A DNA stretch of 64,000 bases. Origin: Lentisphaeria bacterium (GTDB lineage: Bacteria; Verrucomicrobiota; Lentisphaeria; Victivallales; UBA1829). The first letter of the stretch is position 1, and every line of letters starts with the position of its first letter. The notes beneath the pieces were generated by a model that saw only the letters and a list, made by a program, of their open reading frames with translations, ran no database searches and had not been told where the DNA came from. Location: positions 1 to 64,000 of the forward strand of contig JAFXYP010000073.1 of the NCBI GenBank assembly GCA_017541665.1. Reading direction: 5' to 3'. Below, piece after piece: positions 22,929 through 37,169 of the stretch. The position numbers were made by a program, and so were the translations under genes.

Positions 22929-25016
22929 TCAATGCAGTTTGGACGGTCCTCCGTTTGAGAAAACCGTGCCGCTCCAGCCGCCGCTTCCGCCGGATTCGCC
23001 CCTGCGTCCGGTGCAGTTGTACTCGCGGTTGGTGTACATCGGGATCCGGTTGCCGCGTTCATCCTTCGTCCAGACCGCGGTCGCGTCCAGCCAGTCGAGT
23101 CCGGCCTGGCGGAATACCGGGTTGCCGAGCATGGCGAGTGCGGCGACGTAGTAAGCGTAATAGCCGAGGTGGGTCGGATAAAGCTCCACGGCGCGTTCCC
23201 AGGCGTCCTCGAGGCTCGGGCTGCCGGAGAGGAGCGGGACGAATTCCGTGAGGTAGTAAAGCCAGTCGAGATCGAGCATGGAGAAGCCGTCGACCGGCTC
23301 CATGGCGATCGGGATCAGGGCGGTCTCCGTGAAGACGGGCAGGACCATGCGGCCGGCCTCGAACGGGCGGAGATACTGTCCGTCTTTGGTCCTGATCCGG
23401 CCGATTGGCTTGGCCTCGGCGTTCGTTTCGATCCGTTCGACGGAGTTCGAGTTCAGCCTGCCGAGGGCGCGGGAGACGCCTCTCGCATCCGAGTCCGCCG
23501 CCGTATTGGAGAAGACCTGCCCGACGTCGGGCGCGCGGGAACCGCGCCGCGGGCGCCCCATGGATCCGGAGATGGTCACGGTGTCCTGTTTCGCCTCGAA
23601 GTATGCGAGCGCGCCGGACCGGTAGTCCATGCCCGGCTTGAAGCGTCCCCGAAGGTATTCCTCCCATTCCTCCCTGTCGGAGCCGAACGATGCCCATTCT
23701 TCATCGAAGACGGCCCAGGAGAGGCGGGGCAGGAGGTCGTAGCGGCGGTCGGCGTCTTCGTCGTTGTAGCTCTGTTCGAAGATGGCGGTGTTGATCGTGA
23801 TCGAGATATTGGTGAGCGTGTAGTACGTGTGCCGTTTCTCTTCATGCTCCTCGCGTTTCACGACGTCGTCGATCACGGTGTATTCATAGGGGTTTTCCCG
23901 GTTGAACGTTTCGGAGAAGAGCCGTTCTTTTCTTGCCTCGGCGAAGCGGTCCAGGGCTTTCGCCTCGCCGTTTGCGCTTTCGTAGGTGCCGGGCATGTCG
24001 GAGAACGAGATGTGGAGGGGGAGGATTTCGGACTGGTTGGAGAAATTCTCGTCGAGTTCGCATTCGAAATCGCCCCACCAGTTGCCGTTGAAATCAAGCC
24101 GGAGGAGACGGTCGAGTCCGCACCAGTCGCGGGCGTGGATCATATCGTAGAAATTCTTGTCGCCGAGGTAGATGGAGAAGTCGGTCGGCGGATCGGTCAC
24201 GAGGCTGGGCATGCCGACGAATTTGAATTTTGTTCCGGCGGCGATCCCGTATGCGCGGTTTTCCGTATTTCCGGTGAAGTCGTTGTGAAAGGCGGAGTAG
24301 TCCAGGATGGATTCGAGCATGGAGACGTACGGGGCGCGCCAGGCGTAGTCATGGACGAAGACCGGCGTGATGCGTTCGTAGATGCCGTTGTTTCCGACGA
24401 GGTTCAGGTATTTGATGTAGAAGTCACTGGCCTCGGAGTCGAACGTGATGCCGTTATTCTTTGCCGCCTGCTGCGCCGCGCCGAATCCGATCAGCGGACC
24501 GGTGAACGCGATACGGGTCTGGAGCTGGGATACGAGGTCGTCGAGTGCGTCGAGATAGCGTTTCTGCTTCTCCACGCGAAGCACCTCGCGAATCAGCTTC
24601 TCGACGTTCAGGGTGCCGTCCTCGTTGTAGAACTCCGCCTTTTCCGGGAACAGCGTGAACTCCTCCTGCGTGATCGGCTGCGGAAGGTCGGCGAAGAATT
24701 CCGCGGCGTTTCCCGTCTCCGAGGGGGCGTCCAGGATCCCCCTGGCGAAGAACGGGTCGGAGATCAGCGTCCCGGTTGCGCGCACGAGATTGAGTTCGCC
24801 GATCAGGTTCAGCGAGTGCTTCTGCCACTCGGCTCCGGTCAGCGCGGCGGCGTCCACGCCGTTCTGCGCCTTGACCTTGCCGCGGATCACGGTCTGGACG
24901 TCGAAGAGCAGCAGGACGGCGATGATGACGAGAATGAGCGCGACGACCGCCAGGATGAGCACCTGTCCCCGTTCGCCGCGTCTCCGCCGTGATCCTGTCG
25001 CGTGCCGTTTCGTCAT
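22929..25016 (-). CDS. TadG-like pilus-assembly protein
   Basis: 695 residues. The N-terminal GERGQVLILAVVALILVI at about 14-31 is the Tad/Flp-type membrane segment, with the usual follow-up VIRGKVKAQNGVDAAALTGA (TadG-like N-terminal domain). The remaining 630 residues are predicted periplasmic and do not match a family I know; no von Willebrand MIDAS (DxSxS) is visible. The C-terminus is Gly/Ser-rich with an isolated Cys (YNCTGRRGESGGSGG). It starts 6 nt after the TadE-like gene, so the two are coupled. No Tad ATPase or secretin is in the window. Confidence 0.75.
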   Translation of the reverse strand: MTKRHATGSRRRRGERGQVLILAVVALILVIIAVLLLFDVQTVIRGKVKAQNGVDAAALTGAEWQKHSLNLIGELNLVRATGTLISDPFFARGILDAPSETGNAAEFFADLPQPITQEEFTLFPEKAEFYNEDGTLNVEKLIREVLRVEKQKRYLDALDDLVSQLQTRIAFTGPLIGFGAAQQAAKNNGITFDSEASDFYIKYLNLVGNNGIYERITPVFVHDYAWRAPYVSMLESILDYSAFHNDFTGNTENRAYGIAAGTKFKFVGMPSLVTDPPTDFSIYLGDKNFYDMIHARDWCGLDRLLRLDFNGNWWGDFECELDENFSNQSEILPLHISFSDMPGTYESANGEAKALDRFAEARKERLFSETFNRENPYEYTVIDDVVKREEHEEKRHTYYTLTNISITINTAIFEQSYNDEDADRRYDLLPRLSWAVFDEEWASFGSDREEWEEYLRGRFKPGMDYRSGALAYFEAKQDTVTISGSMGRPRRGSRAPDVGQVFSNTAADSDARGVSRALGRLNSNSVERIETNAEAKPIGRIRTKDGQYLRPFEAGRMVLPVFTETALIPIAMEPVDGFSMLDLDWLYYLTEFVPLLSGSPSLEDAWERAVELYPTHLGYYAYYVAALAMLGNPVFRQAGLDWLDATAVWTKDERGNRIPMYTNREYNCTGRRGESGGSGGWSGTVFSNGGPSKLH

Positions 25017-25022
25017 GCGCCG

Positions 25023-25748
25023 TCACTCCAGGAATGCCGAGGAATGGTTCGTGAGCTCGGCTTCGCTCGAAATGTTGATGGAGTCGCGCCCGGTGAGCCA
25101 GTCGTGCAGCGGGATGTCCAGCGGATAATGGACGAACTCGAAATCGAAGTGGATCGTCTGGTCGAACCCGTTCACCTTGAAATCGAGTTCTGGGTGCCTG
25201 CCTTCACTGCAGTCGTCGCATCTGCCGATCATGGGCTCGCCATAATACGGGCAGAGGTAGTTCGTATGGAACCGGTCTTTGCCGCCCCAGTAGGCGTATT
25301 CCACATAGCGGTTGCCCTCCATGAAGCCTCGCAGGAGAGATTTCTCCGTCTCCACCGAGTTCCAGCTCGAGTATCTGCCGAGGTCGGGCGTCACCATGGC
25401 TCCCGAGGCGGGCGCGGCCTTGATCTGCGCCTCCCGGATGGCGTAGTAATCCTTGAAGCCGACCGCTGCGGAGCGTGCGCCGCGGAAGGCCGCGTAGTCG
25501 GCGACCATGTCGGCGAGCGCGAGCTGGAAAAGCTGGAGAATGCCGAAGAGGATGAACCCGAGCAGGATCATGGCGAGGAACGATTCGAGGATCGCGGAGC
25601 CGCGTTCCCCTTTCCGGCGCGCATGCCTGCCTGCCCGGATGCAATGCGCCGCGCGCCCCCAGGCGGGATCCGCCGCCTCGGAGCGTCCTTGAACGCCGCA
25701 GGGACCCACAGCCCGGCGGCGAGGCAGATGTCGGGACAGACAGCGCAT
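25023..25748 (-). CDS. TadE-like pilus-assembly protein
   Basis: 241 residues from ATG 25748, preceded by AAAGGA at 7 nt. A basic N-terminus of about 45 residues leads to GERGSAILESFLAMILLGFI, the TadE-type Glu-containing membrane segment. Then come a conserved-looking ADYAAFRGARSAAVG (also typical of TadE) and a C-terminal domain with a Cys cluster (CPYYGEPMIGRCDDC). The cluster could bind a metal or form disulfides in the periplasm. It belongs to the pilin-pilin-TadE-TadG group. Confidence 0.8.
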   Translation of the reverse strand: MRCLSRHLPRRRAVGPCGVQGRSEAADPAWGRAAHCIRAGRHARRKGERGSAILESFLAMILLGFILFGILQLFQLALADMVADYAAFRGARSAAVGFKDYYAIREAQIKAAPASGAMVTPDLGRYSSWNSVETEKSLLRGFMEGNRYVEYAYWGGKDRFHTNYLCPYYGEPMIGRCDDCSEGRHPELDFKVNGFDQTIHFDFEFVHYPLDIPLHDWLTGRDSINISSEAELTNHSSAFLE

Positions 25749-25833
25749 GCTCACATCCTTTTTCGGAAAATAATCAGACACGGGCGGCGCTCAGACGCTT
25801 CCCGTGTCCGTTTCATCAGGCGGAACAGTCCGA

Positions 25834-26100
25834 TCAGAAATTGATGTCGGACGGGCCGTTCTTGTCCATTTCCTGCAACTGTTTCAGGCTGTCGCCGTCG
25901 TCGCCCGCGGCCTGTGCGGAGTTCTGTCCGCCGATGGCCGTCGTGGTGCCGGCGATCAGGGCCTTGATGCGGTCGCCGAAAAGCCCGAGCACGGTCAGTG
26001 CCGCGACCGCGACGAGCGCGATGATGATGATGTACTCCAGGATGGCCTGTCCGCCGGAGGAGCGGCGTCTCTTTTCGTAATACTTTCTGTTGAATTTCAT
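25834..26100 (-). CDS. Flp-type pilin-like protein
   Basis: 88 residues from ATG 26100. Prepilin-like: a basic leader (MKFNRKYYEKRRRSSGG), then GQAILEYIIIIALVAVAALT with the Glu at position 5 of the hydrophobic helix, as in Flp/TadE pilins processed by a prepilin peptidase. The C-terminal part is short and acidic with no recognised fold. It is followed after 85 nt by the TadE-like gene. Confidence 0.8.
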   Translation of the reverse strand: MKFNRKYYEKRRRSSGGQAILEYIIIIALVAVAALTVLGLFGDRIKALIAGTTTAIGGQNSAQAAGDDGDSLKQLQEMDKNGPSDINF

Positions 26101-26138
26101 ATCAGGGCTCCTTGGTTCGAGGTTTTGTATCGGTTCGG

Positions 26139-26300
26139 TCACGGCTCCCAGGCGATTAGGGTCAGGATCCGCCAGCCGTATTCGAGAAAAACGCGCATGA
26201 GGAGAAAAAGCGTGAGGGCGACGAGCACGACCATGCAGAGCATCACGGTGTATTCCGCGAGCACCTGCCCGGATTCGCTTTTGCGCGCGCGTCGTCTCAT
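26139..26300 (-). CDS. Minimal pilin-like/TadE-like peptide
   Basis: 53 residues, little more than a leader and a helix: MRRRARKSESGQVLAEYTVM, then a hydrophobic segment and YGWRILTLIAWEP. The SGQVLAEYT block has the +5-type Glu of Flp pilins. ATG 26300 has GGAG upstream and a promoter with an extended -10 directly before it, which makes it the first gene of the pilin cluster. The Arg-rich open frame further upstream overlaps the promoter and is not used. Confidence 0.75.
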   Translation of the reverse strand: MRRRARKSESGQVLAEYTVMLCMVVLVALTLFLLMRVFLEYGWRILTLIAWEP

Positions 26301-27547: not shown

Positions 27548-28153
27548 TTATTGCTGGGAGAAGTGCATGAAATTGCGGATGGCGTTCGCTTCAAGGTTCA
27601 GCGCGGTCGGTTCGTCGAAGGGGCCGTCGACGACCACGGTGTCCTCGTCGGAATAGAGGAAGCGCGGCCTGAAGGTGCGGTAGAGCACGTCGTCGATGAC
27701 GAATGCGAGCGAGGGAGATTTGCCGCGGTCATCGGAGGCGGTGAGCTTGCGCCAGAGCTTGCCGCCCTGGGGCGTCAGGTGGAAGCGGAGTTTGTAGAAT
27801 CCAGGCAGGTCGTTGATGGCGATGGCTTCGATGGAGACGATGTCGGAGGAGTCCAGGAGCTGGTTCTTGTCGATGACGACCTCGTCCTCGAACATGGACG
27901 GGATCTGGTATTCCTTCTCGTCGCCGCGCGTGTGTCGGATGATCTCATGGATGGAGACGACGCCGACTTCGCCGGGCTCCCCGACGACGGGCTTGTAGAC
28001 ATCTTCCTTCTCGTCGACATTGAGCGGGTCGAAGATGTTGGTCCCGCTTTCGCAGGCGCACAGGCAGGACGCGGCAAGGAAGAACAGCGCGGGACGGATG
28101 GCTGCCCGTAAAGCGCGCAAGGCAGTGTTCGGGATGTGGATTCGTGTCGTCAT
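27548..28153 (-). CDS. SecD P1-head-like lipoprotein, paralogue 1
   Basis: 201 residues. Lipoprotein signal PALFFLAASCLCACES. The N-terminal half contains SIHEIIRHTRG, shared by the three paralogues; the C-terminal half follows the SecD P1 head pattern: YKLRFHLTPQGGKLWRKL, then LAFVIDDVLYRTFRPR and TVVVDGPFDEPTALNLEA (in SecD: an LT..G block, a LAIVLDG.V block and an I.G.F...EA block). It is 5 nt downstream of paralogue 2. A free head without the membrane channel is not ordinary SecD; a periplasmic substrate-binding or sensing role is an inference. Confidence 0.75.
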   Translation of the reverse strand: MTTRIHIPNTALRALRAAIRPALFFLAASCLCACESGTNIFDPLNVDEKEDVYKPVVGEPGEVGVVSIHEIIRHTRGDEKEYQIPSMFEDEVVIDKNQLLDSSDIVSIEAIAINDLPGFYKLRFHLTPQGGKLWRKLTASDDRGKSPSLAFVIDDVLYRTFRPRFLYSDEDTVVVDGPFDEPTALNLEANAIRNFMHFSQQ

Positions 28154-28158
28154 GGTCG

Positions 28159-28722
28159 TCAGTTGAGGCGGAAATAGTTCCGCGCCGAGTTGGATTCAAG
28201 GTATTTTGCGGTGGCGGGGTCGAACGGTCCGTCCACAATGATGGAGTCCGTGACGTCGTCGTAGAGCAGGCGCGGGACGAAGGTGCGGTAGACGAGGCCG
28301 TCGATGACGAATGCGACATGCGTAGCCTTGTTCGGGAGGCTGAGTCCGATCCAGTGACGCCTCCCGCGGTCGGTCAGCTTCAGTTCGAGGCTGCAATAGG
28401 GGGGCAGCTTTTCGATCGGGACGGCCTTGACCTTCTTGATGTCCACGGACCCCAGAAGGACGGTCTTGTTCAGGCAGAGGTCGTCGCCGAACAGAGAGGG
28501 CGCCATGACCTCCTTGTCGGTGCCGCGGCGCATGTGGATGATCTCCTGGATCTCGATGAGACCCTCCAGGGGGCGGTCGGACGAGTCGAAGTTCTCCGGG
28601 TCGAATATCCGGTCCACGTCGTCGGCGCTGCAGCTCTGCCCCCCCGCACCGCAGCAGAAGACCGCGGTGAAGAGGATCATGACGACGGGGAGAACCCGGC
28701 GGATATGTTTTGAGATGGTCAT
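28159..28722 (-). CDS. SecD P1-head-like lipoprotein, paralogue 2
   Basis: 187 residues. The signal ILFTAVFCCGAGGQSC has several candidate lipid Cys residues. The shared N-terminal block is EIQEIIHMRRGTDKEV, and the head pattern is CSLELKLTDRGRRHWIGL, VAFVIDGLVYRTFVPR, IIVDGPFDPATAKYLES. Spacing is 5 nt to paralogue 1 and 7 nt from paralogue 3, so the three are one transcript. Divergence among copies is high outside these motifs, so the duplication is old. Confidence 0.75.
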   Translation of the reverse strand: MTISKHIRRVLPVVMILFTAVFCCGAGGQSCSADDVDRIFDPENFDSSDRPLEGLIEIQEIIHMRRGTDKEVMAPSLFGDDLCLNKTVLLGSVDIKKVKAVPIEKLPPYCSLELKLTDRGRRHWIGLSLPNKATHVAFVIDGLVYRTFVPRLLYDDVTDSIIVDGPFDPATAKYLESNSARNYFRLN

Positions 28723-28729
28723 GGAGAGG

Positions 28730-29278
28730 TCATTTCCTCATCTTGAAATAATTGAATTTCGCGTTGTTGTGGATGGCCATCGCCGTGGCCTGGTCGAACG
28801 GGCCGTCCACGATGACCGAGGTCGCCTCGTCGTCGATTTGCCGGGGCACGAACCCGCGGTACACCGTGCCGTCGATCACGAATGCCAGCTGGGTGCCCTT
28901 GTGCTGCACGCTGAGGTTGATCCAGAGCATGCGTCCGCGTTCGGTGAGGTCGAACCGGAGGTTGTAGAATCCCTGGTCGCCGGGGATCGGGAGATACTGG
29001 ATGTCCTTGATCTCGGACGAATCGAGCAGCTGCATGGAATGGATCGTCACTTCACCGCCGAAATACGACGATACGGTCCGCTCGATGCCGTCGCCCTGTT
29101 TATTGCGGATGACTTCGTGGATGGAGACCACGTTCTTCGGCGGTTTCTGCATCTCCTCCCAGTTGTCCGGGTCGAAATACAGGCGGACCTCCTCACGGTC
29201 GCAGCTGTGGTAGCCGCAACAGAAGAGGGCTGAGCAGAGAAGTGCCGCCGGAGCAAGAAGTCTACGGATGGTTTTCAT
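28730..29278 (-). CDS. SecD P1-head-like lipoprotein, paralogue 3 (first of the operon)
   Basis: 182 residues from ATG 29278. Signal AAALLCSALFCCGYHSC. Shared blocks: SIHEVIRNKQGDGIE, YNLRFDLTERGRMLWINL, LAFVIDGTVYRGFVPR, VIVDGPFDQATAMAIHNN. A promoter lies 40-70 nt upstream in the divergent region shared with moxR. The pattern of LT-x-x-G, FVIDG-x-VYR and VDGPFD matches the SecDF P1 head, where this surface moves between two positions during protein translocation. Confidence 0.75.
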   Translation of the reverse strand: MKTIRRLLAPAALLCSALFCCGYHSCDREEVRLYFDPDNWEEMQKPPKNVVSIHEVIRNKQGDGIERTVSSYFGGEVTIHSMQLLDSSEIKDIQYLPIPGDQGFYNLRFDLTERGRMLWINLSVQHKGTQLAFVIDGTVYRGFVPRQIDDEATSVIVDGPFDQATAMAIHNNAKFNYFKMRK

Positions 29279-34214: not shown

Positions 34215-35378
34215 TTATTCCGCGGCCGGAGCTTTTTTCGCGGGGGCGAAATCGTTGATCTTCACATTTTTCGCGATTTCGTCGTCGAGCACCTTGTTGA
34301 GTTCGTTCTGCGCCTTTTCCGCCGCGAGGTATTCGGTGATGTTGTCTTTGATCTTTTCGAGAGGGGTGACCTCTTCCGGGATCTTTTCGAGCAGCTTGAT
34401 GATGTGGTAGCCGTAGGCAGTCTTGACGGGCTTCGTGATCTGGCCGGGCTTTTCGATGGAGAATGCGGCGTCGACGAAATCCTTGATCATGGCTCCGCTG
34501 CCGTCGAGCCTCATGCCGGTCCTGTCGAACGCGGGGAGTTTGCCTTCGTCGGCTTTGCCGGAGGGGCAGTCGCTCTTTTCCTGGGCGAGCTTGCCGAACT
34601 GGGAAGGATCCTTGAGGAGCTCTTCGTAGATGGCGTCGATCTCGGCCTTGGCGTCGGCGTCATCCTCATCATTGTCGGACTGGATGAGAATGTGCGCGAC
34701 GGAGATGCCTTCGGGTGTCGTGAGCTCGGCGATGTGGTCCTCGTATTCCTTCTTGACGTCGGCGTCGGAGACTTCCTTCTTCGCCTTGTCAAGGAACGTG
34801 GTGTGGATGTACTTGCGGAGGGCGGCGGCCTCCTGGACCTCGACGTTCTGCGCGAACTGCTTCATATCGTCCTCAAGCGAGAGGCCTTGTTCCTTCAGGT
34901 CCGCCTCGAACTCTTCCTGCACCTCCTTCGGGAGCCCTTCGAATTCTTCCTTCATCTCATTGATGACGAATTCGGGGGAAGGCTTGAAGCCGGCTTTTTC
35001 GGCAAGCCTGAACACGACCCTGTGCTTGACCGTCCTTTCGATGTGGGTGTTCATTTCCTGGCGGAGCCTTTCCTCGCCGATTCTCTTGTAGATCTCGAGC
35101 GGGATTCCCTGGGAAACCAGCTCATCGGTGATCTCTTTTCTGGCGATGGGTTCGCCGTAGACCGTGGCGACGGGGTCGGGGAGGAATGCGAGGACTTCGA
35201 GGACTTCCGCCTCGGAGGCGGGCTTCATTTCCAGATCCTGCATCTCCATGCCTTGTGCATCGACCTGTTCGTCGGCATCGTCGGTCTTCTTGTCGCCGCA
35301 GGCGCTGAGTGCGGCGGCCGCGATGCACGCCGCGAAGCAGACCGCAATGGTCTTGCCGGTGAATTTCATGATGTTCAT
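34215..35378 (-). CDS. SurA/PrsA-type parvulin peptidyl-prolyl isomerase lipoprotein
   Basis: 387 residues from ATG 35378 (AGGAG site). Lipoprotein signal FAACIAAAALSACGDK. Residues about 55-215 form a SurA-N-like helical chaperone domain (HRVVFRLAEKAGFKPSPEF, QEAAALRKYIHTTFL), and residues about 220-350 a parvulin domain beginning SVAHILIQSDND and ending AYGYHIIKLLEKIPEE. Parvulin-specific QFGKLAQEKSDCPSG is present. It folds exported proteins in the periplasm. The neighbouring thioredoxin-fusion gene has a related helical domain without the parvulin part. Confidence 0.9.
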   Translation of the reverse strand: MNIMKFTGKTIAVCFAACIAAAALSACGDKKTDDADEQVDAQGMEMQDLEMKPASEAEVLEVLAFLPDPVATVYGEPIARKEITDELVSQGIPLEIYKRIGEERLRQEMNTHIERTVKHRVVFRLAEKAGFKPSPEFVINEMKEEFEGLPKEVQEEFEADLKEQGLSLEDDMKQFAQNVEVQEAAALRKYIHTTFLDKAKKEVSDADVKKEYEDHIAELTTPEGISVAHILIQSDNDEDDADAKAEIDAIYEELLKDPSQFGKLAQEKSDCPSGKADEGKLPAFDRTGMRLDGSGAMIKDFVDAAFSIEKPGQITKPVKTAYGYHIIKLLEKIPEEVTPLEKIKDNITEYLAAEKAQNELNKVLDDEIAKNVKINDFAPAKKAPAAE

Positions 35379-35499
35379 GTTCACTCCTGTTGCTGAGTTA
35401 TTGTTTGTTATTGTATGATCGTCTGATATGCCGGGGTTCTGCTGCCGGAGGCCGGCGGACGGGGCGTCCGCAGGTCCCTTTTGCAAAAACGGTTATATA

Positions 35500-35597: not shown

Positions 35598-37169
35598 TCA
35601 GTTTTCCGGTTTCCAGTATTTGACGGTCTTGCGGATCGTCTCGATCTCCTTGTCGAGTTCCCTTGCCTTGGCGGGGGCCTTCGCCTTCACGAGCGTGTCC
35701 AGGACTTTCGCCCGCTCGGCCTCGTATTCGCCGGGGAACTGCGTGCGGTTGGCTTCGTAGTGGTCCTTCAGCGCTTCCTCGTCGATGTCCTTCTTTGCGG
35801 CCTTCTCCGCATAGTCGTTGATGAAAAGCTTGATCGCGGCAGATTCCTGATGCTCCTTGTCGTCGGCGAGTGAGCCGATAAGTTCGTCGAGGGAGCTTCC
35901 CTGCTGCTTGAGGGCCTCTTCCAGGGCTTCCTTCTGTTCTGCGGGGAATTCGTTGACTTCCGAGGTGATGGCATCCTTCACGAGCTGGGCGGAGGGCTTG
36001 AACCCGGCATCTATGGCCATGTCAAGCATGATGGCTTCATCGAGCTTCTGCTGGATGATGATGCCGATGGTTTCCGGCGTGATATCGTCGCAGTCACTGA
36101 GGCTGATCCCGAGGGGCAGGACTTCGTCCGCGATTTCCTGGATAACCGATTCGCGGGTCAGCTTCAGATCCTTGTACTCCAAGAGCGTGTCGGGCAGGTA
36201 GGCGAATTTCTCCTGAAGCTCGTCCATGGTGACGGGCTTTCCCTTGCCGTCGAGGATGTCCTGGATCTTGTCGATGTATTGCCTGGAGTAGCCGGAGATG
36301 GTGCCGAGCCTGGTCTCGCCGTCGGAGGCCAGCACGACCGTGCAGGGGTAGCCGTCGGCCTTGAACTTCTCGGCGAGTTCGGCGTTCTGCTTCTTGAGCG
36401 CGTCGGACTGCGGGATATTGTTCGGGAAGTCGAGTTCGAGCAGGACGAGCTTCTTTGAGAAATCCCTGAACTCGTCCTTGTCGAGCACGTCCTCGTGGAG
36501 GCGCATGCACCAAATGCACCAGTCGGAACCGGTGAAGAACATCAAAATGGGCTTGTTTTCCGCGGCTGCCTGTTTCTTCGCCGCCTCGAAATCGGTCAGC
36601 CACGCGAGTCCTTCGCCTGCTTCTCCGGCTTCTTTATCTGCGGCATCTTCCCCCGATTTTTTTTTCGCGTCGACCGTGCTTTTCTTCACCGTCTTCTTCA
36701 GCTTCTTGACCAGTTCCTTGTCGTAGCCGACCGTTCGGTCCAGCTCCTTTTCGCCGTCCGGCGCGACCAGGACCATGGTCGGATAACCATCGATCTTGAA
36801 CTTCTTGTTGAGCTCGTCGTTCTGTTTCTTCAGCGCATCGGACTGCTCCTTCGTGCGCGGGAAGTCGAGCTCGAGCAGGACCAGGCCGTCCTTGGCAAGC
36901 TCCTGGAATTCGTCTTTGTCGAGCACGTCCTCATGGAGTTTCTTGCACCAGCCGCACCAGTCGGAGCCGGTGAAGAACATCAAAATGGGCTTGTTTTCCT
37001 TGGCGGCCTGTTTCTTCGCCGCCTCGAGGTCGGTCAGCCAGACGACTTCCGATTTCTTCGCGGCTTCCTTCGCCTCCTTGGCGGGTTTCGTATCGGCGGC
37101 GTTCAGCGCCGCCCCGGCGCAAAGCGAACCGCAGATCGCGGCCGCGAGGATCAGTTCAAAATGCTTCAT
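35598..37169 (-). CDS. Exported protein: two thioredoxin domains fused to a SurA-N-like chaperone domain
   Basis: 523 residues. Signal peptide MKHFELILAAAICGSLCAGA. Domain 1 (about 45-165) is thioredoxin-like with FFTGSDWCGWCKKLHEDVL (active site CGWC, about 68-71), domain 2 (about 190-300) a close internal repeat with CIWC (about 216-219). After residue 310 comes a helical region with AIDAGFKPSAQLVKDAITSE and QESAAIKLFINDYAEKAAKK, parallel to AEKAGFKPSPEF and QEAAALRKYIHTTFLDKAKK of the adjacent parvulin lipoprotein, but the protein stops where parvulin would begin. A combined disulfide/chaperone factor for exported proteins is an inference. Confidence 0.82.
   Translation of the reverse strand: MKHFELILAAAICGSLCAGAALNAADTKPAKEAKEAAKKSEVVWLTDLEAAKKQAAKENKPILMFFTGSDWCGWCKKLHEDVLDKDEFQELAKDGLVLLELDFPRTKEQSDALKKQNDELNKKFKIDGYPTMVLVAPDGEKELDRTVGYDKELVKKLKKTVKKSTVDAKKKSGEDAADKEAGEAGEGLAWLTDFEAAKKQAAAENKPILMFFTGSDWCIWCMRLHEDVLDKDEFRDFSKKLVLLELDFPNNIPQSDALKKQNAELAEKFKADGYPCTVVLASDGETRLGTISGYSRQYIDKIQDILDGKGKPVTMDELQEKFAYLPDTLLEYKDLKLTRESVIQEIADEVLPLGISLSDCDDITPETIGIIIQQKLDEAIMLDMAIDAGFKPSAQLVKDAITSEVNEFPAEQKEALEEALKQQGSSLDELIGSLADDKEHQESAAIKLFINDYAEKAAKKDIDEEALKDHYEANRTQFPGEYEAERAKVLDTLVKAKAPAKARELDKEIETIRKTVKYWKPEN

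Follow-up and report, generated by a model that had tools for sequence, protein, structure and literature searches.

The window, i.e. the whole stretch of DNA analysed, comprises 64,000 nucleotides of a contig from a Lentisphaeria bacterium (JAFXYP010000073.1). Between positions 27548 and 29278 its minus strand carries three tandem genes, P0003, P0002 and P0001 (copies 1, 2 and 3; Table 1), and the coordinates, strand and tandem arrangement given in an earlier note on this DNA proved right. All three ORFs encode exported proteins, P0002 and P0001 being 42-43% identical to P0003. The gaps are 7 nt between P0003 and P0002 and 5 nt between P0002 and P0001, so the three genes very probably form a single transcript. 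After a further 28 nt, in the same direction, comes P0004, the exported protein of unknown function that the note had placed behind the trio. The three motif blocks quoted there were found again in each copy: LT-x-x-G (LTERG, LTDRG and LTPQG), AFVID-x-x-[VL]YRxFxPR (AFVIDGTVYRGFVPR, AFVIDGLVYRTFVPR and AFVIDDVLYRTFRPR) and VDGPFD-x-x-TA (VDGPFDQATA, VDGPFDPATA and VDGPFDEPTA).

Table 1. Positions of the three tandem genes and associated features in the window.
Feature	Position	Strand	Remarks
P0003 (copy 1)	28730-29278	-	182 aa; signal peptide, Cys26, SecD P1-head-like domain
P0002 (copy 2)	28159-28722	-	187 aa; head-like stretch about 28189-28485
P0001 (copy 3)	27548-28153	-	201 aa; head-like stretch about 27584-27886
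P1-head-homologous stretch of P0003, residues 75-172	28763-29056	-	hhalign against SecD P1 heads, 95 columns
Cys26 codon of P0003	29201-29203	-	position at which aligned relatives have their lipobox Cys; the YHSC here is non-canonical
Candidate lipid Cys31 (GQSC) of P0002	28630-28632	-	lipobox pattern test
Candidate lipid Cys34 of P0001	28052-28054	-	LASC/LTSC in orthologues
Promoter-like site 5' of the trio	29450-29421	-	CCGACA-18-TATAAT, 10/12 matches
P0004	26434-27519	-	exported protein of unknown function; next gene, same direction

Full-length matches to P0004 are confined to the genus of the window (11 genomes). No Pfam family matches it, and its AF2 model (pLDDT 41) is too poor for a functional clue; most genomes of the genus also hold a distant, larger relative (770-840 aa, e.g. 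G011:C21 and G005:C16). Beyond P0004 lies a Tad/Flp-like cluster (22932-26142, minus strand) of Tad-domain and pilin-like proteins, whose order is kept in the genus. About 5 kb from the trio are two further minus-strand genes, one for a PpiC-type parvulin lipoprotein (34218-35417; Rotamase, 76 bits) and one, at 35598-37169, whose product has two thioredoxin-like domains by eye.

The trio had also been credited with its own promoter. A promoter-like site is indeed present upstream. Its TATAAT, however, shares bases with another promoter-like site, on the plus strand, that faces the divergent moxR, and the promoter scan found 3 sites where 0.9 were expected in shuffles. The assignment of this site to the trio is thus only suggestive.

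The claim that the proteins sit on lipoprotein anchors has to be put more cautiously. A Prosite-type lipobox (e.g. LTGC, VSGC, LASC) is found in 51 of the 84 family members described below, and the column of Cys26 of P0003 is the sole invariant column across 32 diverse members. Among the window copies, however, only P0002 has the pattern: P0003 (..FCCGYHSC), the first copy of this genus, fails it and P0001 (..AASCLCAC) narrowly fails it. Lipidation is likely across the family and putative for copy 1.

The earlier note had related the three proteins to the P1 head of SecD. Taken as single sequences they remain below the 27-bit cut-off of Pfam SecDF_P1_head (PF22599), one copy scoring 15.4 bits, P0001 13.1 bits and another giving no match; with NCBIfam secD (TIGR01129) P0003 reaches E 0.002 and 17.3 bits for a cut-off of 244. 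Family profiles, in contrast, score much higher with SecD heads than shuffled controls do. The order-level alignment of 84 members was compared with the P1 heads of 27 SecD-type sequences, taken from the genomes of these members; the score was 43.7 (hhalign 86%, E 4.7e-6), and the best of 30 column-shuffled controls reached 19.7. A class-wide alignment of 32 members gave 62.7 with SecD P1-head profiles (hhalign 96%, E 1.3e-9), the best of 100 column shuffles being 26.6. On these controls a chance similarity of motifs was rejected. Run over 338 genomes, the 32-member profile detected complete SecD frames (770-1000 aa) through their head part at E 1e-6 to 1e-8, and among PDB sequences it detected the SecDF of T. 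thermophilus (3aqo) at E 1.4e-4. Two distant members, L176 and L177, clear the Pfam cut-off alone (27.5 and 28.1 bits); their scores with the family profile are 124 and 56 bits.

An AlphaFold2 model of P0003 computed from 33 sequences (pLDDT 84.5, pTM 0.75) was compared with the PDB by Foldseek. SecDF entries fill ranks 1 to 8 (probability 1.00, E from 2e-6 to 4e-5), the holo-translocon entry follows at rank 9 and the first unrelated entry appears at E 0.17; only SecDF is found at E < 0.001. Normalised on the full query with its signal peptide and flexible linker, the TM-scores are 0.39-0.50, and those of the best-aligned entries are 0.46-0.50. Copy 1, as modelled, has the P1 head fold, and among solved structures the model fits SecDF alone. 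Profile-profile comparison, direct detection of SecD, the PDB sequence search and the fold search agree: the relation of the window proteins to the SecD P1 head is one of true homology. The note had named the lack of a significant profile match and a differing predicted fold as grounds for refutation, and on both counts the outcome favours its interpretation.

The membrane part of SecD is missing, as had been claimed. No SecD membrane domain is encoded in the locus, Pfam detected neither the P1 base nor SecD/SecF membrane domains in any family member scanned, and the family proteins stop shortly after the head. The genome has a normal SecD ORF on contig C7 (95.5 bits to PF22599). Because base and membrane domains are absent and an ordinary SecD is encoded elsewhere, the family proteins are not the SecD motor.

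The window genome (2.6 Mb, 87 contigs, 77% complete) holds these three family copies and no further ones were found in it; its nearest relatives are rumen Lentisphaeria/Victivallales assemblies. Orthologous triplets of all three copies occur in 10 other genomes of the genus. The dN/dS values of orthologues within the genus are 0.13-0.25, 0.24-0.37 and 0.26-0.48 for copies 1, 2 and 3 respectively; purifying selection thus keeps all three copies, copy 1 most strictly. Together with the intact SecD elsewhere in the genome, these values rule out a degraded SecD pseudogene.

A broad profile matches in 84 of the 86 genomes of the order, weakly in one of them (G005), and 24 of 29 further sampled genomes of the class have a family match, a count that leaves out SecD-only matches. 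Outside the class the same profile gave few, weak short-frame matches over 338 genomes. This class-wide occurrence rules out a local fluke of the window genome. G005, which belongs to the same genus and is 92% complete, shows no clear family copy and one weak match (E 2.6e-4); the loss may be tolerated, or the region may be absent from the assembly.

A tree was built from 118 head-domain rows. In it a branch with an SH-aLRT of 98 separates the class family from the SecD heads and the other stand-alone heads, and the window triplet falls in a starred set of nine rows. One very long outside row (L184) falls on the family side, and four weak matches labelled family by score (L167, L185, L186 and L187) fall on the SecD side. 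The family is a single supported clade apart from SecD heads and Lentisphaeria-wide, which upholds the proposal of a separate family. Its derivation from SecD is supported by distribution, since SecD is near-universal and the family essentially class-restricted.

Gene neighbourhoods differ between lineages. Outside the order, in 19 sampled genomes of the class, the family lipoprotein gene stands between an NtrC-type regulator (receiver, sigma-54 ATPase and Fis HTH domains) and a long GreA fusion. In four genomes (G196, G323, G326 and G327) yajC-secDF and this regulator-lipoprotein-GreA trio point away from each other, and in G324 yajC directly adjoins the family gene, at a contig end. Several families inside the order keep the trio, with a Ser/Thr kinase upstream; in others lpxA and recN flank the family gene, or its neighbours are aroE/PPK. 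Sec-gene linkage was looked for among the genomes of the order of the window and none was found. The ancestral place of the family is likely the regulator-lipoprotein-GreA operon, linked to yajC-secDF.

In the window genus the triplet stands between a divergent MoxR-DUF58-transglutaminase operon and P0004 with the Tad-like genes, an arrangement conserved in the genus, and the GreA gene of the window genome, on contig C87, is adjoined by neither regulator nor family lipoprotein. Here the gene left its ancestral place and tripled beside the Tad-like genes. The GreA fusions that follow the lipoprotein gene are about 700 aa long (L131, L132, L177-L179, L188-L199); in the one scanned, that of L046, GreA is matched in the C-terminal part only, the N-terminal ~540 aa being without assignment. 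A Fis HTH match, present in the NtrC-type regulators of L131, L182 and L183, is lacking in the corresponding regulator of the L046 locus (L046:3670-4953).

We read the triplet as paralogues within a family of envelope lipoproteins that occurs throughout Lentisphaeria and consists of SecD P1 heads without the motor. Computation shows the homology to the P1 head, its fold, the lack of P1 base and membrane parts, the single clade across the class, the purifying selection, and the ancestral linkage to yajC-secDF with the NtrC-type regulator and a long greA. As regards function, we tentatively propose, at slightly below an even chance, a membrane-tethered, motorless SecD head that would bind emerging polypeptides or dock chaperones near the Sec exit. 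The protein would be exported and then lipid-anchored in the membrane close to that exit. There the tethered head would passively bind stretches of polypeptide as they emerge and/or dock periplasmic chaperones, as the SecDF P1 head does, and so would slow backsliding or pass clients on. Lacking base and proton path, it would not perform a proton-driven stroke itself. For a head that was retained while the motor was lost and a lipid anchor gained, the simplest working model would be a passive, tethered clamp or a chaperone dock. The YSAP turn of SecD corresponds to YRxFxPR in the family, and identity with the SecD head of the window genome amounts to 18 of 95 positions; the binding surface may therefore differ from that of SecD. 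The triplication in the window genus would plausibly serve different clients. The lack of sec-gene adjacency in the window's order and the non-canonical lipobox of two of the three window copies also count against this reading, as does such a change of the binding surface.

The main rival is a sensor of secretion or of envelope state: the head would sense export load and signal, directly or via a kinase, to the NtrC-type sigma-54 regulator of the adjoining upstream gene, which would adjust transcription with the GreA factor of the downstream gene. The gene order in the 19 genomes outside the order, and the kinase found with it in several families inside, speak for such a role. On its own, however, a lipoprotein cannot carry a signal through the membrane, and no sensor kinase that would match it was identified; greA belongs to the housekeeping genes, and the window's family has lost the regulator/GreA context yet kept and multiplied the lipoprotein; we regard the sensor as unlikely. 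Slightly less probable still is its extension to the whole class, an export-surveillance module in which the lipoprotein head would sample emerging chains beside SecDF and report the load to the regulator and the long GreA, coupling export to transcription. To an adaptor that binds no client, and instead recruits SurA/PpiD-type parvulins or the outer-membrane assembly machine as proposed for the SecD head, we give the same low weight as to that module. Reports or predictions that the P1 head touches PpiD and SurA (PMC7793623, PMC9987972) and the parvulin gene 5 kb off in the window are in line with it, but the parvulin gene is absent from the conserved neighbourhoods seen.

In the window genus the three proteins could also be accessories of a Tad/Flp pilus, serving the assembly of the downstream Tad-like pseudopilins. 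Tad-domain and pilin-like genes do lie among the same-direction neighbours in an order kept in the genus; elsewhere in the class, however, the family has other neighbours, so that this improbable role would cover at most the genus-level triplication. A resemblance by chance or a convergent fold, with no relation to SecD, would fit the single-sequence Pfam scores under the curated cut-off, but in view of the concordant profile-profile, SecD, PDB sequence and fold searches, and of two members that pass that cut-off, it can hardly be credited. The motorless, tethered SecD head bears on a debate about what the SecD head does in export: a client-pulling stroke, a clamp against backsliding or a dock for chaperones. 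Throughout Lentisphaeria, a class of gut and environmental bacteria, the family retains the head with neither motor nor base nor proton path, and so poses directly the question which of these jobs the head can do alone. Its ancestral placement beside the export-motor genes suggests that it helps or senses protein export in a way not yet described, and through the yajC-secDF linkage the family becomes a specific candidate for a Sec-associated factor of this class that has so far gone unlisted.

Compared with known systems, the family has in common with the P1 head of SecD/SecDF (PF22599; T. thermophilus SecDF 3aqo, 3aqp and 5yhf) the fold and the order of elements, and both have the central LxxxG / lAxxhDGxxY / GxF motifs. 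Unlike SecD, it is a stand-alone exported protein with a lipid-anchor signature, devoid of the P1 base, the six TM helices and the proton path, and its C-terminus carries an NA..NY extension whereas the SecD head returns to the base. The SecD P1 head carries a substrate-binding pocket and crosslinks to PpiD, and a contact with SurA is predicted (PMC11470409, PMC7793623, PMC9987972). PpiD/YfgM and SurA can be compared with the family by function only: the place proposed is the same, the Sec exit, where, as in the role proposed here, they would bind emerging chains either tethered or in solution and with no energy source of their own, but their folds (parvulin, TPR) are unrelated.

Other short P1-head proteins of the class resemble the family in having a head without the motor, several with a signal peptide, but in the tree their heads fall among those of SecD and not with the window family. 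They are apparently separate liberations of the head, recent in G020. There, a 203-aa lipoprotein with a nearly intact SecD P1 head (L180:1447-2055, 144 bits) is encoded directly upstream of yajC-secD (SecD at L180:2666-5293), and a comparable frame of 237 aa occurs in G027, which belongs to that genus. The others, L164-L174, are frames of 146-283 aa with SecDF_P1_head above the Pfam cut-off and without the SecD membrane part (G332, G057, G372, G132, G352, G184, G025, G385, G055, G290 and G031). In a plasmid search with the stand-alone head L101 of G020, the annotated places returned were SecD or SecDF. The open-licence literature searched, of incomplete coverage, held nothing relevant on stand-alone SecDF heads or SecD-like lipoproteins. 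The domain itself is already known; in that literature no class-wide, single-clade family of lipoproteins made of the SecD head alone and ancestrally linked to yajC-secDF was found.
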